NCBI GenBank assembly: GCA_014239775.1 | Contig: JAAZYG010000008.1 | Span: forward strand, 1-41,148 | Direction: 5' to 3' | Source of the DNA: Candidatus Uhrbacteria bacterium | Lineage (GTDB): Bacteria > Patescibacteriota > Patescibacteriia > UBA9934 > GWF2-40-263 | Length of the DNA: 41,148 nucleotides | In this document: one piece after another, positions 3,954-14,790 of the stretch | Numbering within the stretch: the stretch's first letter is position 1 | Layout: the number at the start of each line of letters is the position of its first letter | Position numbers and translations under genes: made by a program | Notes under the pieces: generated by a model | Database searches by the model: none | Seen by the model: only the letters and a program-made list of their open reading frames with translations | Told to the model about the DNA's origin: nothing

Positions 3954-4619
3954 ATGAAAAAAGAAAAGAAGCGTTTTTTTGACGTCATTACAATTTTTCC
4001 AAATATTATAGATTCATATTCCAGTGAATCTATTTTAGGACGTGCACAAAAGAAAAACATAATTTTAATTAAATCCCACAACCTTCGTGATTTCACAAAA
4101 GATAAACACAAGACAGTAGACGACACTCCTTATGGAGGAGGTCCTGGAATGCTGATGAAAGTAGAACCTTTTGATTTGGCTGTAAAAAAAGTTAAAAAAA
4201 GGCTTAAAAAAACAAGAATTATAATGACTGCTGCATCTGGCAAAAAATTTACTCAAAAAGATGCTAGACGTTTATCTAAGTATGATCAAATAATATTTTT
4301 GTCAGGTAGATATGAAGGTATTGATTATAGAGTGCAAGAAAATATCGCAGATGAGGTATTTTCTGTAGGAGATTATGTACTTACAGGTGGGGAATTGCCT
4401 GCACTTACAATGATTGATGCGATTTCAAGAATGGTCCCAGGAGTTCTTGGTTCAAAAGAATCGTTAAAAGCAGAGTCACATACAGAAGAGGGTGTAATGG
4501 AGTATCCTCAATATACAAAACCTGAGGTTTACAAAAAATGGAAAGTACCAGATGTGTTATTGAGCGGTCATCATAAAAAAATAGAAGAGTGGCGTAAGAA
4601 AAAACAAAACAAAAAATAA
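3954..4619 (+). CDS. trmD: tRNA (guanine-N1)-methyltransferase TrmD
   Basis: FFDVITIFPNIIDSY...DDTPYGGGPGMLMKVEP...SVGDYVLTGGELPALTMIDAISRMVPGVLG. Confidence 0.97.
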   Translation: MKKEKKRFFDVITIFPNIIDSYSSESILGRAQKKNIILIKSHNLRDFTKDKHKTVDDTPYGGGPGMLMKVEPFDLAVKKVKKRLKKTRIIMTAASGKKFTQKDARRLSKYDQIIFLSGRYEGIDYRVQENIADEVFSVGDYVLTGGELPALTMIDAISRMVPGVLGSKESLKAESHTEEGVMEYPQYTKPEVYKKWKVPDVLLSGHHKKIEEWRKKKQNKK

Positions 4620-4670: not shown

Positions 4671-5285
4671 TTAGTTTAAATTTGCTGAATTAAATACAAC
4701 ACCAAATGGTTTGCAATAAATAATAACAGATTTAAAATCAAGACCATGCTCAAGTGCAGAAAATTCGTAATTTTGATTTCCTTTATTTCCTTTTAATTTA
4801 CCAAGCTCAATATATTCTCCAAGATCATCTGAAGAACGAACGTTTGTTTTTTTTGAAAGTAATACTCGTAAATCTGGGCCATTTAGCACGTCTAAGTCTT
4901 CAATTCTAAGAGTGCCTGGTCCATCACCTTCTGTTCCATATAATGACACAGAACCACTTCCATGATGGGCAACATCTTCAAAGGTTCCTTTACTAACCAA
5001 GTAACCTGTGCCATTGGCGGGTTCGTTCATTTCAACTTCTTGATCAATTTCATTCATCTCATTTTCAAATTCTTTCATTATTTCTGAAGAAAGTTGGTCC
5101 TCAAGATTCATGACAATAGGTGTGTCATCAACAGTATCTTCTGTATTCACCGGAAGTTCATCTGAAACTGCTATTGAGAATTCTTCATTTACAACCTTAT
5201 CAATAAACAAAGGTGAAATAAGCCAATAAGCTACACACAGGCTAACAAGACCTACGATAATTCCAACTTTTTTTTTCATATACAA
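4671..5285 (-). CDS. DM13-domain protein, membrane-anchored
   Basis: N-terminal TM; GTGYLVSKGTFEDVAHHGSGSVSLYG...LRIEDLDVLNGPDLRVLLSKK resembles the DM13 domain. Confidence 0.75.
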   Translation of the reverse strand: MYMKKKVGIIVGLVSLCVAYWLISPLFIDKVVNEEFSIAVSDELPVNTEDTVDDTPIVMNLEDQLSSEIMKEFENEMNEIDQEVEMNEPANGTGYLVSKGTFEDVAHHGSGSVSLYGTEGDGPGTLRIEDLDVLNGPDLRVLLSKKTNVRSSDDLGEYIELGKLKGNKGNQNYEFSALEHGLDFKSVIIYCKPFGVVFNSANLN

Positions 5286-5315: not shown

Positions 5316-5909
5316 TTATTTTTTATCTTGAGCGGCGTTAGTCTCAGTAGTCTCATCCTTAACTATCTCTTCTTTTGGTTCATTTGTAGTTTCATCTTTT
5401 GTTTCTGCTTCAGCAGGAGTCTCTTCTTTTGGCGCAGCTTCTTCAGCCTTTGCTTCCTCAGCAGCTTTTGTAGTCTCAGCTTCAGCTTTCTTTGCAGCAG
5501 CTTCTTCTGCTTCTGCAGCTTTCTTTGCAGCAGCTTCTTCTTTAGCAGCAGTCTCAGCTTCAGCTTTCTTTGCAGCAGCTTCTTCATCCTTAGCTTTTTT
5601 CTCTACAATCTTTTCCTCAATTTTAGCTGTTCGTTTTTTACTAATATGTGAAGATGTTCTTTTTTCACCTTCAATAACTTTTTCACCTACAAGAAGATTC
5701 CATACAGTATCAGTTGGCTGAGCACCTTTATTGATCCAGTACTTAATACGATCTGCTTGAACCACAAGTTCTTTAGGTTGTTTTCGTGGATTGTAATGTC
5801 CAAGAATTTCTACTGATCTTGCCCATGGATCACGTTGTTTAGGCATGACAACTATACGGTATGTTGGGGCCTTCTTTTTCCCAACCCTTGAAAGTCTAAT
5901 TGATAACAT
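5316..5909 (-). CDS. rpsP: 30S ribosomal protein S16 with ~110-aa Ala/Glu/Lys-rich C-terminal extension
   Basis: MLSIRLSRVGKKKAPTYRIVVMPKQRDPWARSVEILGHYNP start typical of bS16. Confidence 0.96.
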   Translation of the reverse strand: MLSIRLSRVGKKKAPTYRIVVMPKQRDPWARSVEILGHYNPRKQPKELVVQADRIKYWINKGAQPTDTVWNLLVGEKVIEGEKRTSSHISKKRTAKIEEKIVEKKAKDEEAAAKKAEAETAAKEEAAAKKAAEAEEAAAKKAEAETTKAAEEAKAEEAAPKEETPAEAETKDETTNEPKEEIVKDETTETNAAQDKK

Positions 5910-6121: not shown

Positions 6122-6150
6122 TTGACAAACTTGTAAAAACATGCTATTAT
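6122..6150 (+). promoter_or_regulatory. Strong sigma-70-type promoter at the head of the cassette array
   Basis: TTGACA-N17-TATTAT with extended -10 TG (aTGcTATTAT). Confidence 0.75.
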
Positions 6151-6269
6151 ACACGTATTAAAGATGCAAAAGCTCATTAAAAACTATTTTGGGGAGAGAG
6201 AAACCACAAACTATTAATGAACGCTTAAATATGCATATTTTGCTATAAAAGCTACCTTAATGGTTAAAA

Positions 6270-6317
6270 ATCGATTATTTGATGTTTCTAAGAAATTTCC
6301 AGTAATCGGTTTTTTAT
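6270..6317 (+). terminator. Leader hairpin with U-tract (candidate attenuator)
   Basis: ATCGATTA...(TTTCTaAGAAA)...TAATCGGT followed by TTTTTTATTT, between the promoter and the first ORF. Confidence 0.55.
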
Positions 6318-6414
6318 TTGTTCTTCTAAAGTGTTCCTTGTCTGTCATGTAGAGGGTGTGTTGATGTTGTATCGGCATGGCTCTGCATTCACCAGACAAG
6401 GAGGGTTTTTACCC

Positions 6415-6837
6415 ATGAAGAAGACCATTATTCCCGCAATCGCTATTATCAGCTTGACCGCACTGCTTCTCGGTGCAAACTTCGCATCTCAGAGTGTTGA
6501 GAAGGTGTCTGCAACGATCAATCACAATACTCAATCCTCTGCTGAGAGGCTGACCAATGATGTCAGTCCTTCCGTAGGAGACCGAGATGGGGTTGTTCAT
6601 GCAGATTTCGATCACGTCGATGAGAATGGTGCGCTGCATTTTGCACCAATCATGATCATCGGCAATCCGGATGCAGATATGTCTGCATATGAGGATTTTT
6701 CTGAGTACGAGAACGCTGATAACGCGACTGTTATCGAGTTCTCTGATGAGGAAGCTGGTGAGATCGTTGTGTCGCTTAAGACCCTCGATCATGACATTGA
6801 GCAGTATCGGCTTGCCGGTCTGCTTCTTGATGACTAG
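6415..6837 (+). CDS. Small secreted/lipid-exposed hypothetical protein (~140 aa)
   Basis: MKKTIIPAIAIISLTALLLGANFASQSVEKVSA signal-peptide-like N-terminus; AAGGAGGG RBS. Confidence 0.7.
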   Translation: MKKTIIPAIAIISLTALLLGANFASQSVEKVSATINHNTQSSAERLTNDVSPSVGDRDGVVHADFDHVDENGALHFAPIMIIGNPDADMSAYEDFSEYENADNATVIEFSDEEAGEIVVSLKTLDHDIEQYRLAGLLLDD

Positions 6838-6866
6838 CCTTAGTCTCAGCTCCAGTCATCTCAACT

Positions 6867-6951
6867 GCCCGTACCTCACATGTGATACTTCTCACATGTC
6901 AGGTACGGGCCTTTACCTGAGAGCTTGAATGAAAATTCAAGATATCAGGTA
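6867..6951 (+). repeat. Array element copy a (H1 6867-6910; H2 6914-6951)
   Basis: H1 GCCCGTACCTcACATGTGA...TCACATGTcAGGTACGGGC; H2 TACCTGAgagCTTGAATgaaaATTCAAGatatCAGGTA. Confidence 0.75.
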
Positions 6952-7040
6952 GAGTGCTTGCGTGTGGTAGGTGCTCTTTAAAAGAATCAGACAAAGTGCA
7001 TTTGCACTATGTCTAGTTAGAAGAAAAGGGTTTATCCCAA

Positions 7041-7279
7041 TGCAGAAGTTGTTTTTCTTGATCTTGTGTTCCGCTCTGTTTGGAGCGGCTGTTAATCCCA
7101 AGAGTCTGGAGCTTGTGGAATCGAGCATCAAAGTCCTTACCCCAGGTAAGGGATTTGTGGAGACGATGATTCCTAATGCATACACCACGACCAAAATCGA
7201 CATCAATCAAGGAAAGGTAATTCCCGCATTGTATGTTGGGAAGAACTCCAAAGGCGAAATTACAATTATGAACGACTAA
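7041..7279 (+). CDS. Small secreted hypothetical protein (79 aa)
   Basis: MQKLFFLILCSALFGAAVNPKSLELVESS signal-like N-terminus; start preceded by GAAAAGGG. Confidence 0.6.
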
Positions 7280-7287
7280 AAATACTG

Positions 7288-7375
7288 CCCAGTGGCTCAC
7301 ATCTATGCAATCTAGCATAGAAGGTGAGCACTGGGATATGACCTGAGTTTTTGAGTAATATTCGAGACATCAGGT
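7288..7375 (+). repeat. Array element copy b (H1 7288-7335; H2 7341-7375)
   Basis: H1 CCCAGTGgCTCACatCTATGC...GCATAGaaGGTGAGcACTGGG; H2 ACCTGAgttTTTGAGTaatATTCGAGacaTCAGGT. Confidence 0.75.
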
Positions 7376-7457
7376 TGTAACACGTGCGGTTGGTATGTGT
7401 TTAAAAAAAATAAAGAATGTTCGCAACGCGAGCATTTTATGCTGTGAGAACTGTAAA

Positions 7458-7694
7458 ATGTTCAAAGAACTTCTACTGGTTTTATTGATTGCTGTAATTA
7501 TTGGCGCAATGACGGTCATCGGACTAGAAGATCGATTTTCGGTAAAGTTGTTGATCTGGGTTGGGGTCATGTTTTGCACTTCTGCTATTATGTGCTTCGG
7601 ACATGTTGGCAAAAGCTCTATACAGATTGATAGATGGGTAAAAACCCTACTATTGTGTGTAATAGCACAATTCGTATACATCTCTTTGTATTAA
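7458..7694 (+). CDS. Small membrane protein, hypothetical
   Basis: MFKELLLVLLIAVIIGAMTVIGLEDRFSVKLLIWVGVMFCTSAIMCFG; hydrophobic helices (ORF-track start is 7395). Confidence 0.55.
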   Translation: MFKELLLVLLIAVIIGAMTVIGLEDRFSVKLLIWVGVMFCTSAIMCFGHVGKSSIQIDRWVKTLLLCVIAQFVYISLY

Positions 7695-7702
7695 AAAATC
7701 TA

Positions 7703-7769
7703 GCCTGTCTTTAGTAATAAAACTAGACGGGCATTCATCTGAGATCTTGATTCAAAATCGAGACATCAG
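7703..7769 (+). repeat. Array element copy c (H1 7703-7732; H2 7739-7769)
   Basis: H1 GCCTGTCTttAGTaataaaACTAGACGGGC; H2 CTGAgatCTTGATTcaaAATCGAGacaTCAG. Confidence 0.75.
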
Positions 7770-7772
7770 GCG

Positions 7773-8545
7773 GCTCCTCCTCCTCTTTAGTTATGGAGTA
7801 GGAGTAAACTATAATCCTCAGCAAAGGAAAAAATGCTGTATATCAAGAAGCGTTGAGAACCTAATCGTTCGCTCAGCGTGGATCGGTTTAAAAACCAAGG
7901 AACGATCGTCGTACCATGCTCTCATACTAAGTATGAGGTCGGACAATACCGTAAAACAAATGAGCCGTATCCGTTTTAATGGATTCGATAAATTGTTTAT
8001 TCGGTAGTTCAGAACGTAGGACAAAGCATGGAGGGTGTGTGTCACATCCTAAACTTACGGGAGATGCCCGCATATATGATACTGGCAATTTCGCCAAATA
8101 ATTCTCTTTCAAGCAGAAGTTTGGGAGACAAACAATAAGATGTATAAGAAATCGTCTTATTATGGGGTAACAGGCTTGATTAGATAAAATTAAACGTTCG
8201 GGGTCTAAGACATATCACTTGCCCGGACGTGGATACATAAAAAGTGGTCGGTGTACTATGCGTGGCTGATTGATAGAGAGTGGGGAAAAGGTGCAAGTCG
8301 GACTGAGCATGAGCTCTACTGATATGAACTGAGTACGTAGCGAGGCTATCATGAAAGCTCTCTGATGATTATCGGGCAACACGCCATAAAAAATCATCAG
8401 AACACCGTTAGGGTCGCGCCAAAGCATAGAAGGTTAAAAAGATTCGTGAAACCTTTGAGGGTGTGGAAACTCAATATACGAATCAAAAGGCGTTTTGTGT
8501 TTCGCCCAACAGAACACTCCTGGACATGGAGGTTAATGTCCACTC
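7773..8545 (+). ncRNA. Putative large (~770 nt) structured noncoding RNA, class unknown
   Basis: No convincing ORF; many local and medium-range stems with + strand G-U pairs, e.g. 7850-7857/7872-7879, 8134-8142/8153-8161, 8194-8202/8222-8230, 8361-8370/8392-8401, 8441-8447/8478-8484, 8522-8527/8536-8541. Confidence 0.6.
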
Positions 8546-8616
8546 GGCGGTAGGGTTCCTTTGAATCCTACCGCCATTTACTTGATACCTTGAGTATTTA
8601 CTCGAGATATCAAGTA
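8546..8616 (+). repeat. Array element copy d (H1 8546-8575; H2 8579-8616)
   Basis: H1 GGCGGTAGGGTTcctttgAATCCTACCGCC; H2 TACTTGATAcCTTGAGTatttACTCGAGaTATCAAGTA. Confidence 0.8.
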
Positions 8617-8639
8617 AAAGATAATATTACATAAATATA

Positions 8640-8680
8640 CATCGATTGATTCTGTGAAATACTTCGCAGTATCTGAGATG
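8640..8680 (+). repeat. Array element copy e (H2 only, no H1)
   Basis: CATCGATTGATTCTGTGAAatacTTCGCAGTATCTGAGATG. Confidence 0.65.
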
Positions 8681-8742
8681 TTCATTTTAGCAGCTTCGGT
8701 TGCAACAACGATTTCCTGCATTAGTCAGGATGAAAGAAGAGA

Positions 8743-9078
8743 ATGATGTTTAGTTTTAAACTCATTACATTTGCTTCCCTTTGTGCAATGACGTATTGCG
8801 GAAGCATACCTGAGATTCCCGGATGCGCTCTGATTGGCCTTTGGATTTTCTGTGTTGCTGCATCGACAGGCTTCATTGCCAAACTCGGTCGCTTCATTAT
8901 TGAAATGATTGATTGGTCATTCGAACCTGCACCATTTCTCATGTTCTCTATCTTTTTCACATATGTTGGCTTCGAGTATGATTTATTTGCTGGATTCATT
9001 GCTACTTGCATAGCTGCATGGGCAATAGTCAGATTCATGATATATGAAAAAACTGAGAAGGATAAAGTGGCGGCATAG
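8743..9078 (+). CDS. Small integral membrane protein, hypothetical
   Basis: MMFSFKLITFASLCAMTYCG...; several hydrophobic segments. Confidence 0.65.
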   Translation: MMFSFKLITFASLCAMTYCGSIPEIPGCALIGLWIFCVAASTGFIAKLGRFIIEMIDWSFEPAPFLMFSIFFTYVGFEYDLFAGFIATCIAAWAIVRFMIYEKTEKDKVAA

Positions 9079-9116
9079 TAAGATCAGTGCAAGGATGATG
9101 ATAGTTTGTATTTTCC

Positions 9117-9413
9117 TTGAGAACATTACATACATTCACCACACGTACCTCTGTGCGGAATAATGAATTATTAAAAGAGGTTCGGCTGAAATGCCGTGAA
9201 AGAAAGACTGTGTCTGAATTAGATAAACTGCTTAAGCAGTTTGAAGAGGCTGACAAGCAATTGGTAGAACTCTTGAAAGCTATCAATGTATCTGCCGGAG
9301 AGAATGAACGTACAAAGGCGTTATACGATTCGGATCTTGACCCTAGGAAGGCATGTGATTTTATCCACTTCAACTTGGTGGAAAGCATTTTGTCTACTGG
9401 AGTAGAAGCATGA
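9117..9413 (+). CDS. Hypothetical, probably coiled-coil protein (TTG or internal ATG start)
   Basis: VSELDKLLKQFEEADKQLVELLKAIN; stop overlaps the next start. Confidence 0.5.
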   Translation: MRTLHTFTTRTSVRNNELLKEVRLKCRERKTVSELDKLLKQFEEADKQLVELLKAINVSAGENERTKALYDSDLDPRKACDFIHFNLVESILSTGVEA

Positions 9414-9613
9414 GCGATCTGTTTGTTGAGATGATTAATAATCCTTGGTTGCTTTGTACAATTGCAATTCCTGTTAAGGGAATGCATGTTGTACTTCAGC
9501 ACGCGATTTCGCCAAAAAAGGATTTGGATGGACCAGATCCGTCTGATAGTAAGGCGAAAAAAAAGTGGCTTCAATCGTTGAAGGATGATTTCAAGAAGTC
9601 CAATAAGAGTTGA
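9410..9613 (+). CDS. Hypothetical protein (67 aa)
   Basis: ATGA overlap with the upstream ORF indicates translational coupling. Confidence 0.55.
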   Translation: MSDLFVEMINNPWLLCTIAIPVKGMHVVLQHAISPKKDLDGPDPSDSKAKKKWLQSLKDDFKKSNKS

Positions 9614-9623
9614 AAGGTATGCT

Positions 9624-9776
9624 GTGTCAGATAAAGATATGACCCCTTCCGAAATTAAAGCTTTTCTTCGTTGGAAGGTACGAGTTGATCCTTCGAATGA
9701 AGATGAGGAATTGAAGGCTACATTGAAGAACATGAAAGATCTTCAAGACGCTCTGGACAGAAAAAAGAAAAATTAG
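9624..9776 (+). CDS. Microprotein (50 aa, GTG start), hypothetical
   Basis: GAAAGG RBS upstream of GTG; VSDKDMTPSEIKAFLRWKVRVDPSNEDEELKATLKNMKDLQDALDRKKKN. Confidence 0.55.
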   Translation: MSDKDMTPSEIKAFLRWKVRVDPSNEDEELKATLKNMKDLQDALDRKKKN

Positions 9777-9789
9777 TTCATTTTAAACT

Positions 9790-9857
9790 GTCCCTGAAGT
9801 TTTAACTTTAGGGACCATTGACTGATTTCATGAATTTACTTCGTGAAACCTGAGATG
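9790..9857 (+). repeat. Array element copy f (H1 9790-9815; H2 9816-9857)
   Basis: H1 GTCCCTGAAGTTttAACTTTAGGGAC; H2 TTTCATGAAtttacTTCGTGAAA then CCTGAGATG. Confidence 0.8.
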
Positions 9858-9890
9858 TACTTTATTAATGAGACTTAAAGGTCACAGAAA

Positions 9891-10250
9891 ATGGCTGATA
9901 AAAAATTGGTAGCCAGGATCAAGGAAGTTGGTGGAAAGCAAGCTGTTGAGGAATGGAAGTCTGCTGGCAAGAAAATTGATCTCGCTTGGGCGAATCTATC
10001 TGAAACAAATCTTCGAGAAGCAGATTTCTATTGTGCAAATCTCTATTGTGCCAATCTTTCTGAATCGTATCTCTCTGGAGTGGATTTTCGTAGAGCGGAT
10101 CTCCGTAAAGCGAATCTCTCTGGAGCGGATCTCCGTGGAGCGAATCTTTTTAAAGCGAAGCTCTTTGGAGTAAATTTTACTGCAGCTAAAGGTTTGTCCG
10201 AAGAAATGAAGGAAAAAATCCTTAACTTGCTTCGTGAGAGCTGGGAATAA
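9891..10250 (+). CDS. Pentapeptide-repeat protein (119 aa)
   Basis: A(N/D)LxxAxL-type repeats: ANLSETNLREADFYCANLYCANLSESYLSGVDFRRADLRKANLSGADLRGANLFKAKL. Confidence 0.85.
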   Translation: MADKKLVARIKEVGGKQAVEEWKSAGKKIDLAWANLSETNLREADFYCANLYCANLSESYLSGVDFRRADLRKANLSGADLRGANLFKAKLFGVNFTAAKGLSEEMKEKILNLLRESWE

Positions 10251-10273
10251 AACCCACGTTTTCTAACACTCCC

Positions 10274-10347
10274 CCCCCAGCTGTAGTAATGACTATAGCT
10301 GGGGGCATCGATTGATTTCATGAATACACTTCGTGAAACCTGAGATG
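10274..10347 (+). repeat. Array element copy g (H1 10274-10305; H2 10306-10347)
   Basis: H1 CCCCCAGCTGTAGTaatgACTATAGCTGGGGG; H2 CATCGATTGATTTCATGAAtacacTTCGTGAAACCTGAGATG. Confidence 0.8.
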
Positions 10348-10423
10348 AAAGTTTTTATAAAATTTATCTATATACTTGTACAGATTTAAGATTCTGTTAC
10401 ACTCTACACCTTGTGAGAAGGAA

Positions 10424-10478
10424 CAGGTTATTATTTGAGTACTTAATATATTTTAAGTACTCAAAGGACAACCTGTAA
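10424..10478 (+). promoter_or_regulatory. Long leader hairpin
   Basis: ACAGGTT...TTTGAGTACTTAAtatattTTAAGTACTCAAA...AACCTGT: 13-bp perfect inner stem plus 7-bp outer stem. Confidence 0.6.
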
Positions 10479-10527
10479 TTTAGTGGGTTGATCTATAAAC
10501 TTGAGATTACAAGAAAGGAATCTCAAA

Positions 10528-10808
10528 TGCATAAGTTCATTAGATTTCTTAGAACATTTATTGTGTCTATTTTGTTTGTTGCTCTGCTTCTTGAAATGTC
10601 ATACGCAGCAAGTGAAAACAGAAGTATCTTATTTGGTGCAACAACAAAGACGTGTGAATTTGATATGCCCAGTTGGTCTATTTCAGAAGGTGTTTGGTAC
10701 GGTGTAATGCACTGTAAAAATCCTGACGAGGACCTTAATTTTATTATCGATCGTGATGCAAAAGGAGCTCACACAATCACATTATCCAAAAAGAGGTTGG
10801 TTCAATAG
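10528..10808 (+). CDS. Small secreted hypothetical protein (93 aa)
   Basis: MHKFIRFLRTFIVSILFVALLLEMSYAASENR signal peptide; RBS GAAAGGAA. Confidence 0.65.
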
Positions 10809-11074
10809 ATTAAATAAAATCCAGAGTTATTATACGGATTAACAGTTAACTTATTTAGTAAATTGTTGGTCACAAACACAAGAGACCGTCTGTAATTTAG
10901 TGGTCCCAATAGCTCTGATGTTAGTTTTATTTGATGAGCCAAGGCTTTCTTACTGGATTTTGAATGTAAAATTTCCAAATCCTGATAGGAGAGAGTATTA
11001 ATAAATCTGTCACACCTCCTCAGTGTGAGAAGCAGATCAATAAATGAGGGCGACTTAAGTCGTGAAAGATAAAA

Positions 11075-11302
11075 ATGAGAGGACGACTTCAAAACTCGTT
11101 TGATAAATATGATCAAGTTGATCGTGTTTTAGTAGAAAAGTTGGCACACAAAGGACTGTCGGTTACATACGATGAGCGTATGGCTGCATTGTTATCATTT
11201 GGTGGAGATACCAACAAAGCACTGTCAAAGATATCTCAAGATCACGGTATGTACATTTTAATTGATGTTGAGCGTGCTCACATCTATAAAGAGCTTTTGT
11301 AG
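11075..11302 (+). CDS. Hypothetical protein (75 aa)
   Basis: ORF in the array, same strand. Confidence 0.45.
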   Translation: MRGRLQNSFDKYDQVDRVLVEKLAHKGLSVTYDERMAALLSFGGDTNKALSKISQDHGMYILIDVERAHIYKELL

Positions 11303-11327
11303 ATAAGTTGTTATGGAATAAACTGCA

Positions 11328-11477
11328 ATGAATCGCAAAAAGGGCGAAGCAAAACTTGAAGCTTTTGTTCGTTGGTTTCTCAAAGGTGGTGATCAAGAGG
11401 TCGAAGATCTTTTGAGAGCAAACCGCATAATTGAGAAACGTCATGCTTTTAAAAAAGACAATACCTTTAAAAAGTAA
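11328..11477 (+). CDS. Microprotein (49 aa), below the ORF-track cutoff
   Basis: ATG..TAA: MNRKKGEAKLEAFVRWFLKGGDQEVEDLLRANRIIEKRHAFKKDNTFKK; resembles the 9624-9776 product. Confidence 0.45.
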   Translation: MNRKKGEAKLEAFVRWFLKGGDQEVEDLLRANRIIEKRHAFKKDNTFKK

Positions 11478-11496
11478 GTACCTACTTACTGTTACT

Positions 11497-11564
11497 GCCT
11501 GGTCAAACAAAGTAGTTTGTCCGGGCTTTTACTTGATTGCTGGATATTTATCGAACAATCAAGT
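11497..11564 (+). repeat. Array element copy j (H1 11497-11526; H2 11531-11564)
   Basis: H1 GCCTGGtCAAACaaagtaGTTTGtCCGGGC; H2 ACTTGATTG...CAATCAAGT. Confidence 0.7.
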
Positions 11565-11603
11565 GAGAAAAGAATTGTGTGCACAAGCACATCAGGAGGT
11601 GAG

Positions 11604-11915
11604 ATGTATTTTCTCTTTTTATTTTCTACAGTAACAATGGTTGTTGCAATTTTTTTTATTGTTTCAATCATATGTAAATCAACGAGTTTGCAAAAGCAAA
11701 AGATTACAGATTTGTGTGTATTTCTAAGCATAGTGATTTTATTTAGTGGTGCATTAACCACAGTCTTAGCAATTGTTATTACGGAGCTGTCTTGGCAAAT
11801 TTTTCCAATAGTTTACTCAAGTGTTGTACTAGGAATCTCAGTTGCTGTTACCACAATGACTATTATTCTTAATAAGTATCATGAACAGTCATTAAAGTCA
11901 TTCGTTGACTTTTAA
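11604..11915 (+). CDS. Small integral membrane protein, hypothetical
   Basis: AGGAGGTGAG RBS then MYFLFLFSTVTMVVAIFFIVSIICKS...; hydrophobic helices (ORF-track start 11517). Confidence 0.65.
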   Translation: MYFLFLFSTVTMVVAIFFIVSIICKSTSLQKQKITDLCVFLSIVILFSGALTTVLAIVITELSWQIFPIVYSSVVLGISVAVTTMTIILNKYHEQSLKSFVDF

Positions 11916-11921
11916 CACTTT

Positions 11922-11991
11922 CCCCAATCAAGTATTAATTTTGATTGGGGGCATCAATTAATTTCATGAATTTTTTATGAAATTTGAGATG
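11922..11991 (+). repeat. Array element copy h (H1 11922-11950; H2 11952-11991)
   Basis: H1 CCCCAATCAAgtattaattTTGATTGGGG; H2 TTTCATGAAtttTTTATGAAA then TTTGAGATG. Confidence 0.75.
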
Positions 11992-12061
11992 ATTTATGTG
12001 CATTTAATTATAAGTGCATTCGTTATTTACATATTTCTGCTGTGCAGATGAAAGAGGTTGT

Positions 12062-12394
12062 ATGGAGTTTTTGATTTTTGCTGCGGCAATTGGCTACATG
12101 ATGATGTCTGTTGGACGAATTGTTCCTAATTTGATGGAATATACAATGTGGGAAAAAAGAACCATGTTTGTATGTTATTTAAATGTATGTGCTTTTATTT
12201 TTTGCACAGCATCATCTGTGTCAGCAATGCTTCATTTTTTCTTGATAAGACAAGATATGTTTCAATTCGTGATTATGCTATCAGCATTTATCACGTGTTC
12301 GTCTATTGTGCTTCAGGTTACGTTGTATACTGTGAAACGTTTTCAACGAAACATACTTCACAGAAGTGGCATTGATAGAATTGATCTCTTCTGA
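12062..12394 (+). CDS. Small integral membrane protein, hypothetical
   Basis: MEFLIFAAAIGYMMMSVGRIVPNLMEYTMWEKRTMFVCYLNVCAFIFCTASS...; AAAGAGG RBS (ORF-track start 12014). Confidence 0.65.
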   Translation: MEFLIFAAAIGYMMMSVGRIVPNLMEYTMWEKRTMFVCYLNVCAFIFCTASSVSAMLHFFLIRQDMFQFVIMLSAFITCSSIVLQVTLYTVKRFQRNILHRSGIDRIDLF

Positions 12395-12413
12395 TTAATT
12401 CATTCAAAATCTA

Positions 12414-12482
12414 CCCCAGTTACTAATTTTGGTAGCTGGGGACATTAACTAATTTTCTGAAATTTTCTGAGAATTTGAGATG
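12414..12482 (+). repeat. Array element copy i (H1 12414-12441; H2 12443-12482)
   Basis: H1 CCCCAGTTAC...GTAGCTGGGG; H2 ATTTTCTGAAattTTCTGAGAAT then TTGAGATG. Confidence 0.75.
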
Positions 12483-12486
12483 TAAT

Positions 12487-12516
12487 TAAAAAACAACCTT
12501 ATTGGTTGTTTTTTAT
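12487..12516 (+). terminator. Canonical intrinsic terminator closing the array
   Basis: AAAACAACCttattGGTTGTTTTTTATT. Confidence 0.8.
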
Positions 12517-12561: not shown

Positions 12562-14790
12562 TTATCTTCTTGTTATTTCGTTTTGTGTAATATCTTTTAG
12601 CTGTACGCTTAATAATTTAGAAATACCTTCGTTATTCATTGTGACCCCATAAAGCATATCTGCTTTTTCCATTGTTGCACGGTTGTGAGTTATAATAATA
12701 AATTGACTCTTTTTTGCGAGGTCATCAAGAATCATTGCAAATCTAATTGTATTTGATTCATCTAGTGCTGCGTCTACTTCGTCTAGTACAACAAAAGGAG
12801 AAGGGTTTACAGACATGATTGCACTAAGTAGTGCAATAGATGTAAGAGCTCTTTCGCCGCCAGAAAGCAAGTTCAAGGATTTTAACTTTTTTCCAGGCGG
12901 AGTTGCTTCTATTTCTACACCAACAGTATCTTGTGAATGTTTTTTTAACGTTTTATTTATTGTTTCTTTTTCTGAATCCGTAATAGCTTCAATTGAATCT
13001 TCCGATGTTTGTTGTAGCTGGTTTATTTTTATAAGCGCTGCATTTCCACCACCAAATAAAATTTTAAAATATTCCTGAAACTTTTTATTAATATCAGAAA
13101 AGACTTTTTTGGATTGTTTCTCAATTTTTTCATCAAGTTCTTGTACTATTTTTTCTGTACTATTGATTCCTTTTTTTAAGTCTGTTAGTTGTGTATCTAA
13201 AAATTCGTATCTTTCTTTTGTTTCTTTATATTCATTTATTACCTCAGGATCTATACCCCCAATTAGTTCTAATTTATATCTATATCTTTGTATGTCTGAA
13301 TAAATAGTTTCTGTATTTGTGTTTGAGATTGTGCGTGTTTTTTTAACTAAATCAGCACGATCCTTCATGAACTCACTTATTTCACGATTTAAACCATTTT
13401 GTCTTTCTTCAAATCGTGCACGCTGAATTTCAATTGTGTTTTTTTTGGATTGAAGTGTGTGTATTTCACTTTGTTTCAATCGTAGAGTTCGTTGTGACTC
13501 AATAAATTCTTTTCTCACTTTTTGTTCTTTTTGAGCATAAGAATCCATTTCATGCTCAACATTTTTTAAATTATCTAAGTATGTTTTTGAAGTTTTCTTA
13601 AGTACTGTAAGTTTAGATATTAATTTTTGGTCTGGCTTTACGTCTTCTGGATTTGGTCTTTGTAGACGTGATGCAAATTTTTCTGATCGAGCAAGAAATT
13701 CATCAAGTTCCGCACTAATTAGTTCTATGGAATCTAATTTTTTTAGGGATTTAATTCCTTTAACAACCCATTTAACTTCTTCGATAATTTTTAATAATGG
13801 AAGTGGTGCCCAGTTTGATTGTGCTCGAACTTTTGAAAGTTCTATTTCTTTTTCTGTCTCAAATTGCTCTCTTCGGTTTTGCTCAACCAACTTTTGTTTT
13901 TCTTTATAGGAGGACTGTAATTTTATAAGACCATAATCTGGTTCTGTATTTGTTTCTGTATCATTACTTAATTTATCTAATTCTGCTAATTCATTTTTCT
14001 TTTCTGTTACAGTTTTATCAATTACAGAAAATTGTTGATTAATTTCATTGACCTGATCTGATAGTTTCCACCAAAGTGTACCGTAATATTGTTTTTCAAG
14101 TTCATTTAAATTACTTTGTACTTCATCCCTTTTTTCAAGACGATCAGCCTGTCTTTTTAATGAGCGCATTCTTGGTTCTATTTCTTGTATAATCATTTCA
14201 ACATCTGATAAATTTTCAAGTGTACGCTTTAGTTTAAGTATTGCAGAATGTCGTTTAATCTGAAATTGTTTTACGCCAGTAGCATCATCAAAAAATGTTT
14301 TACGTTCTTCTGGTGAGGCAACTAAAATATGATCAATCATGCCTTGCGCGATGACAGCATAGGATCTTTGCCCAACATTTGCTTGTGCTAGAAGTAGATG
14401 TATGTCAGATAATCGGGTCTTACCTTCATTTAGTAGATATTCAGAAGAACCATCTCTAAAGAGTCGTCTAGTAATAATTACTTCAGAAAAAGCGATTGGC
14501 ATTGATTTGTCTGTGTTATCTAGTGTTATAGATACTTCAGCAAAACCAGATCGTTTTTTTGCTTCAGAACCAGAAAAAATAACATCTTCAGATTTTTTAC
14601 CTCTTAATAGTTTTAAGCTTTGTTCACCTAAAACCCATCTCATTGCATCAGCTATGTTTGATTTACCAGAGCCATTTGGACCAACAATTGCTGTAATTGG
14701 GTGGTGTGTTTTATTGGGTGGTAAGAAATTTAATGTTGTTTTTTTTGCAAAAGTCTTAAAACCTTGCACTTCCAGTCGTTTAACATGCAT
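12562..14790 (-). CDS. smc: SMC-type chromosome segregation ATPase, short (742 aa)
   Basis: Walker A GPNGSGKSN, signature LSGGERAL, Walker B FVVLDEVDAALDESN; MHVKRLEVQGFKTFAKKTTLNF start. Confidence 0.93.
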   Translation of the reverse strand: MHVKRLEVQGFKTFAKKTTLNFLPPNKTHHPITAIVGPNGSGKSNIADAMRWVLGEQSLKLLRGKKSEDVIFSGSEAKKRSGFAEVSITLDNTDKSMPIAFSEVIITRRLFRDGSSEYLLNEGKTRLSDIHLLLAQANVGQRSYAVIAQGMIDHILVASPEERKTFFDDATGVKQFQIKRHSAILKLKRTLENLSDVEMIIQEIEPRMRSLKRQADRLEKRDEVQSNLNELEKQYYGTLWWKLSDQVNEINQQFSVIDKTVTEKKNELAELDKLSNDTETNTEPDYGLIKLQSSYKEKQKLVEQNRREQFETEKEIELSKVRAQSNWAPLPLLKIIEEVKWVVKGIKSLKKLDSIELISAELDEFLARSEKFASRLQRPNPEDVKPDQKLISKLTVLKKTSKTYLDNLKNVEHEMDSYAQKEQKVRKEFIESQRTLRLKQSEIHTLQSKKNTIEIQRARFEERQNGLNREISEFMKDRADLVKKTRTISNTNTETIYSDIQRYRYKLELIGGIDPEVINEYKETKERYEFLDTQLTDLKKGINSTEKIVQELDEKIEKQSKKVFSDINKKFQEYFKILFGGGNAALIKINQLQQTSEDSIEAITDSEKETINKTLKKHSQDTVGVEIEATPPGKKLKSLNLLSGGERALTSIALLSAIMSVNPSPFVVLDEVDAALDESNTIRFAMILDDLAKKSQFIIITHNRATMEKADMLYGVTMNNEGISKLLSVQLKDITQNEITRR

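Follow-up and report, generated by a model that had tools for sequence, protein, structure and literature searches.

A tandem-hairpin element in a hypervariable rpsP-smc interval of Candidatus Uhrbacteria and its possible role in punctuating one long transcript

How can a row of small genes that appear to share a single promoter be divided into separate messages? The question is raised by a 41,148 nt stretch of DNA from a member of Candidatus Uhrbacteria, a poorly studied group of ultra-small bacteria (contig JAAZYG010000008.1 of assembly GCA_014239775.1; hereafter the window), where nine tandem hairpins, each consisting of a first hairpin (H1) and a second (H2), and one H2-only copy lie between plus-strand open reading frames (ORFs). 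The host genome is 872 kb, and whole-genome searches showed that the named members of its family are mostly Candidatus Uhrbacteria. The array fills the 6.65 kb interval between rpsP (minus strand, start at 5909) and a smc-like gene (minus strand, end at 12562), and is read on the plus strand. A strong promoter and a leader come first, then small ORFs on either side of a unit that has none (7780-8545), and an intrinsic terminator closes the array. We propose that H1-H2 acts in the transcript as a module of 3' ends, dividing a long cassette-like operon into separate messages, and we put the probability of this reading at little more than one half (about 0.55). The coordinates of all features are given in Table 1.

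The ten copies were folded on the plus strand and compared with 200 shuffles each, which gave z-scores from -3.2 to -12.2. For nine of them no shuffle folded as well, and for the H2-only copy (e) two did. A preliminary description of the window, made from its letters alone, had listed about nine bipartite copies and the lone H2, and all fold as it had described. Its statement that H1 is different in every unit is mostly right, the exception being element g, whose H1 closely resembles the H1s in the host's other array (L004/L026). It had also placed hairpins after each unit, which is so for the nine H1-H2 copies and e, all of them between ORFs, and is not so for 8743-9776 and 10528-11477, which hold gene pairs with no element between them; the unit between c and d is a structured noncoding RNA (ncRNA) with no ORF. 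One pattern of H2, subtype 2, occurs five times in the window against none expected, and had no match in collections of genome contigs and viral contigs; its sequence is genus-specific, and relatives are reached only via structure and position. A reading of subtype 2 as a kink-turn or C/D box was discarded on inspection, because h and i do not keep the tandem G-A pairs.

Structure and position connect these hairpins to those of related genomes. In most genera H2 has the form CCTCAAC..GAG-inner stem-CTC..GTTGAGG, in three relatives (L096, L098 and L100) it is CTTTTCCAGAGA..GATCTGNGAAAG, and the window carries two further forms. An alignment of 26 H2 sequences from nine genomes has a covariation score of 0.300, compared with 0.135±0.014 for shuffles and at most 0.064 for slid controls; 86% of its cells are paired, 11 pairs are changed on both sides, and the helix is symmetric in the model. 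In 39 of 40 curated cases H1 lies immediately upstream of H2, with 0-2 nt in between, so that the two stems can stack. The sequence of H1 is not conserved between genera. Some H2 loops carry insertions. Homologous intervals totalling 75 kb were scanned for two-tier hairpins with another hairpin ahead of them; there were 37 on the array strand, 19 on the other strand and none in dinucleotide shuffles. An additional, third hairpin (CCCACCAGG...CCTGGTGGG) is seen upstream of H1-H2 in several genera, among them in L083 (oriented interval, 906-929, 4522-4545 and 5098-5121), and also in L081 and L082.

A covariance model of H2 detected elements in 13 of 43 family genomes and in 1 of 30 genomes searched within the order outside the family. 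Almost all family matches fall within the rpsP-smc locus or on short contigs, perhaps fragments of it. This model (R1), which was trained on relatives, misses the window's own H2s; locus, architecture and alignment are the grounds for assigning them to the family. In the host genome (871,035 of 871,931 bases searched), copies are confined to two loci, rpsP-smc and a second array behind typA. At the Rfam gathering score, the window, the ncRNA and the elements gave no match other than to 16S rRNA and tRNAs. The preliminary view that this is not a known element thus survives the search, the covariation and further copies that it had proposed looking for in relatives are strong and many, respectively, and there is no sign of the dispersed, transposon-derived repeat that it had named as an alternative, nearly all matches being in one locus. 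Beyond its reach were the fixed position between rpsP and smc, the ncRNA, the promoter and leader that relatives share, and how strongly the locus varies. H1-H2 might also be a selfish or by-product repeat that spreads by gene conversion within the locus and has no host function, a picture that would suit the near-identical copies in single genomes and the many family genomes that have no arrays. We consider this very improbable, given the cross-genus covariation with the architecture kept, the strict orientation and intergenic placement, the presence behind an ncRNA and the lack of spread to the rest of the genome.

The strand on which the fold is maintained can be approached through imperfect pairs. 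Read on the coding strand, the stems of 60 distinct elements in relatives hold 62 G-T against 9 A-C pairs, a count for which the alignment had been fitted to a model built from array-strand sequences; a smaller, unfitted set limited to fixed stems gave 19:6 (p 0.015), and a strand-neutral count over all curated H2s gave 47:40, spurious internal-loop pairs included. The window leans the same way when G-T and A-C are scored equally, with 9:0 in H1, 10:2 in subtype-2 H2 and 12:5 in subtype-1 H2. When both strands were searched, 12 elements were seen solely on the coding strand and none solely on the opposite one. The CTCAAC...GTTGAG motif is its own reverse complement, and its two-strand count carries no strand information. 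Together, the wobble bias and the both-strand search point to the sense transcript or the plus single strand as the selected form, in agreement with the G-U-type asymmetry, and the selection on something other than a symmetric duplex, that had been suggested for the window. A double-stranded site of the dif/Xer type was considered and set aside on the grounds of the variable loop length and the one-sided wobbles.

The placement of the elements is also regular. H2 starts a median of 85 nt after the upstream stop codon (254 nt for random positions), and from its end to the next start codon preceded by a Shine-Dalgarno sequence the median distance is 60 nt. No promoter of at least 10/12 matches was found in 64 post-element leaders, and none of 58 elements has a run of at least five T in the 12 nt after H2. 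No U-tract follows the window copies, and the preliminary description had noted that H1 lacks one. In view of these two negatives and of the true terminator after the last element, the elements, judged by their sequence, are no ordinary terminators, and the genes they separate do not have promoters of their own. The array as a whole looks like one transcription unit, from the promoter at 6122-6150 to the terminator at 12490-12516, and promoters with 10-11 of 12 matches stand at the equivalent place in array-bearing relatives (L082, L083, L085, L092 and L096). The leader motif GGGGAGAGAG, followed by a terminator-like hairpin ahead of the first ORF, is seen in several genomes, and the leaders of L082 and L096 carry a similar hairpin, a T-run and GTTC. 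Attenuation or processive antitermination of the operon by this leader is possible.

Three known arrangements can be compared with these positions. The GC-rich hairpin followed by a U-tract that defines an intrinsic terminator is missing from the elements, while they do have the two adjacent hairpins behind a stop codon of V-shaped tandem terminators, and the stable hairpin behind a stop codon, in an operon without internal promoters, of intercistronic 3'-protective hairpins. H1-H2 could be read as partial intrinsic terminators of the V-shaped class, with no U-tract, that grade expression down the array or insulate units. The position shortly behind stops and the paired hairpins match that class (PMC8355165), and the leader's terminator-like hairpin suggests that the locus may be controlled by antitermination. 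With no T-runs (0/58) and no promoters behind the elements, however, termination at high efficiency would leave every later gene unexpressed, and both in the window and in L080 the last element is immediately followed by a true U-tract terminator. V-shaped hairpins account for only 0.1% of predicted terminators (PMC8355165), and conservation of the H2 sequence across genera is not something that they require. We regard this explanation as quite unlikely.

The ncRNA between c and d is homologous to RNAs in the rpsP-smc gap of at least nine relatives, including G041, L092 and L095, and its core has compensatory changes in 13 of 26 consensus pairs. The RNAs are about 450-750 nt long, belong to no Rfam family, and share the motifs GGCGYACUAUGCGNGG, AGUACGAAGCRA and AGGGUCGCGCCAAAGCAUGG (window, L080, L082, L095 and L027). 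In the 3' part of four of them (L080, L081, L082 and L083) there is an ORF of 10-11 codons (M/V-T-[YF]-P-L-L-F-Y-x-x-stop or similar) with a Shine-Dalgarno-like sequence upstream. A missing transfer-messenger RNA (tmRNA) or RNase P RNA was rejected as its identity, since the genome has a tmRNA and an RNase P candidate elsewhere. An element follows the ncRNA in seven genomes (the window, as copy d, and L080, L081, L082, L090, L092 and L095), whereas in L027/L093 the ncRNA is alone in the gap, with its own promoter and terminator and no element. The simplest history would be that of an old ncRNA gene between rpsP and smc, with cassettes later added before and behind it. In the array behind typA, which spans two overlapping contigs, the order is promoter, element, pentapeptide ORF, element, pentapeptide ORF and tRNA-Leu, the tRNA taking the place of an element after the last ORF. 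An element after the ncRNA, none where the ncRNA has its own terminator, and a tRNA-Leu as replacement all fit a punctuating role.

Gene content in the interval varies widely. In L084 and L086, rpsP and smc lie about 0.12 kb apart. The distance is 0.6-1.0 kb in L091, L087 and L093, and many other relatives have gaps of between 2.5 kb and more than 16 kb. Expanded gaps contain unidirectional small orphan ORFs on the array strand, with high third-position GC (GC3), separated by H1-H2, and the locus of L085 has some 20 or more elements. Most expanded gaps are G+C-richer than their flanks (for example, 0.58 against 0.47 in L080), and GC3 reaches 0.93 in single ORFs, which suggests foreign origin or strong expression. 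In a comparison of one genome per species, cassette content differed between species; ORFs are rarely common to relatives, even within a genus, and those that are shared hold different positions in the row. Elements within one genome may be up to 100% alike while their ORFs differ, and the identity between such repeats often stops at the 3' end of H2 or in its loop. Exchange may occur at H2, or this may simply be homologous recombination between conserved elements.

Such a pattern recalls integrons, and H2 might be an attC-like recombination site, folded as single-stranded DNA and acted on by a tyrosine recombinase in trans, in a platform without a neighbouring integrase where H1 is a passenger, terminator-like hairpin. 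The mostly orphan, unidirectional ORFs at one locus, each followed by a hairpin, with few shared and their positions shuffled, would be expected of it, as would the identity that ends at H2 and the loop insertions; in CTCAAC-type arrays, most H2s also end in YYYAAC...GTTRRR as in attC cores, with an outermost letter that does not fit the attC core. Even so, none of the 43 family genomes reaches the TIGR02249 cut-off of 265 bits (the best, at about 118 bits, matches one part of the protein), the genome of the window has one Xer-like gene only, and most window H2s, like those of L096 and L098, lack the GTT/AAC boxes. The H2 hairpin is symmetric, without the extra-helical bases of attC, H1 is nearly always attached, and the wobble bias (62:9) favours the coding strand, whereas attC uses the bottom strand. 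An attC-like site is thus a rather unlikely account of H2.

In the punctuation reading that we favour, one promoter and a conserved leader would drive a long unidirectional operon of mostly orphan small genes and an ncRNA. Each gene or small gene group would end in two stacked hairpins, H1, for which any stable GC-based stem may serve, and the conserved, two-tier H2. Cleavage of the primary transcript would take place in the open leader that separates each H2 from the gene after it, and H1-H2 would stay on the released mRNA or ncRNA as a cap at its 3' end, blocking 3'-5' exonucleases; H2 is perhaps read by a nuclease or an RNA-binding protein. On this view, the element probably marks where each message ends once the long transcript has been divided. 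If units are self-contained in this way, recombination between near-identical elements could allow cassettes to come, go and be shuffled. Several observations weigh against this reading. Some gene pairs have no element between them, the wobble count of 62:9 comes from a fitted alignment, and in the H1 of relatives the asymmetry is not significant (14:11). The gap of 0-2 nt leaves no open site between the two hairpins, and in the typA array one element lies directly behind the promoter, with no gene ahead of it. Finally, a mechanical 3' cap needs no conservation of the H2 sequence, and a specific reader must therefore be assumed. More speculatively, and with considerable doubt, the locus may be an integrase-free, single-locus gene-capture platform, with cassettes added on both sides of the ancestral ncRNA unit, each with an H1-H2 that gives it independence in the shared transcript and guides exchange via RNA or single-stranded DNA.

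The ORFs of the window array gave little indication of function. None scores above the Pfam cut-off except one pentapeptide-repeat protein, and nothing convincing was found in PHROGs or PADLOC; a phage or defence island was dismissed, the PHROG and PADLOC matches having no better than marginal E-values. Near ORFs without H1-H2 there is a long inverted repeat and a twice-occurring sequence, CTGTAATTTAGTGG (10423-10476, about 10475-10490 and 10893-10906). In the flank, ribosomal protein S16 has a repetitive C-terminal extension (5412-5607).

Table 1. Features of the rpsP-smc array of the window, and location of the second array of the host genome.
Feature	Position	Strand	Remarks
Array promoter	6122-6150	+	TTGACA-17-TATTAT; 11/12 consensus letters
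Leader motif GGGGAGAGAG	6191-6200	+	Conserved; also in leaders of L082, L083, L085, L096
Leader hairpin ATCGATTATT...CAGTAATCGGTTTTTT	6268-6319	+	Terminator-like; read from sequence
ORF 1	6415-6837	+	Small protein, signal-peptide-like; no family
Element a	6867-6957	+	H1 6867-6910, H2 6911-6954; fold z -11.0
ORF 2	7040-7279	+	No Pfam or PHROG family
Element b	7288-7375	+	Fold z -7.9
ORF 3	7458-7694	+	Small membrane-like protein; no family above cut-off
Element c	7703-7769	+	Directly upstream of ncRNA; fold z -6.1
Structured ncRNA unit	7780-8545	+	Between c and d; ends approximate; aligned core 8170-8450
Element d	8546-8618	+	Directly after ncRNA; fold z -12.2
Element e	8640-8680	+	H2 only, 41 nt; fold z -3.2; identical to second-array H2 (L026 669-709)
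ORF 4	8743-9078	+	Membrane-like; no family
Three small ORFs	9117-9413, 9410-9613, 9585-9776	+	Tightly spaced or overlapping; no elements between
Element f	9790-9857	+	H2 subtype 2; fold z -7.5
Pentapeptide-repeat protein ORF	9891-10250	+	PF00805, E 5.6e-33
Element g	10274-10347	+	H2 subtype 2; fold z -8.2
Small ORF	10528-10808	+	N-terminal hydrophobic stretch; no family
Two small ORFs	11075-11302, 11328-11477	+	
Element j	11497-11568	+	Fold z -6.9
Membrane-like ORF	11604-11915	+	No family above cut-off
Element h	11921-11991	+	H2 subtype 2; fold z -4.4
Membrane-like ORF	12062-12394	+	No family
Element i	12414-12482	+	Last of the array; fold z -5.6
Intrinsic terminator	12490-12516	+	With T-run; directly behind element i; read from sequence
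typA array	L004 9163-9327 and L026 1-1430		Second H2 identical to window copy e

Hairpins between cistrons have been described before, and so have cassette arrays. Neither Rfam nor the literature searched yielded a covarying two-hairpin module of the kind proposed here, punctuating a hypervariable operon at a single locus and accompanied by a new ncRNA, and nothing was found on the locus itself. The rpsP-smc interval is a fixed chromosomal site, in an uncultured family with small genomes, where new genes of unknown function collect, apparently under one promoter, and where a new conserved structured ncRNA lies at the centre. The H1-H2 signature lets such units be recognised, and makes it possible to ask in a testable form how reduced genomes retain and exchange genes specific to a lineage, and how a single long transcript can be split up when its genes lack promoters of their own.

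Of the known systems, the protective hairpins of Escherichia coli are close in principle. At malE-malF, papBA and menBCE, intercistronic hairpins cap the 3' end of the upstream mRNA that is released by an endonuclease cut (PMC5927463). As in the array described here, they lie between genes of one transcript, shortly behind stop codons, but they are few and individual and form no shared family, whereas H1-H2 is one covarying two-hairpin element, repeated, found across genera and also placed after an ncRNA. V-shaped terminators (WebGeSTer classes, PMC8355165) likewise have two gapless hairpins behind a stop codon and no U-tract, but here the hairpins stand within an operon without internal promoters, the operon has a separate end terminator, and the second hairpin is conserved.

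Arrays of integrons, or of clusters of attC sites lacking integrases (CALIN), have unidirectional orphan ORFs with trailing imperfect palindromes, a single promoter and changing content. The present arrays share this layout and, in part of the family, the YYYAAC/GTTRRR ends, but have no IntI and no attI identified, boxes that are not universal, a symmetric hairpin, a coding-strand bias and an H1 that is nearly always attached. Repetitive extragenic palindromes (REP) and bacterial interspersed mosaic elements (BIME), with their REP-associated tyrosine transposase (RAYT), are also intercistronic palindromes, often paired, but are dispersed over the genome with a fixed sequence, whereas the elements here are nearly confined to one locus and change in sequence under a kept structure. 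In mitochondria, tRNAs punctuate polycistronic transcripts, and structured RNA between genes marks the ends of messages; H1-H2 is not a tRNA, but it too is structured RNA between genes, and in the second array a tRNA-Leu stands in its place.

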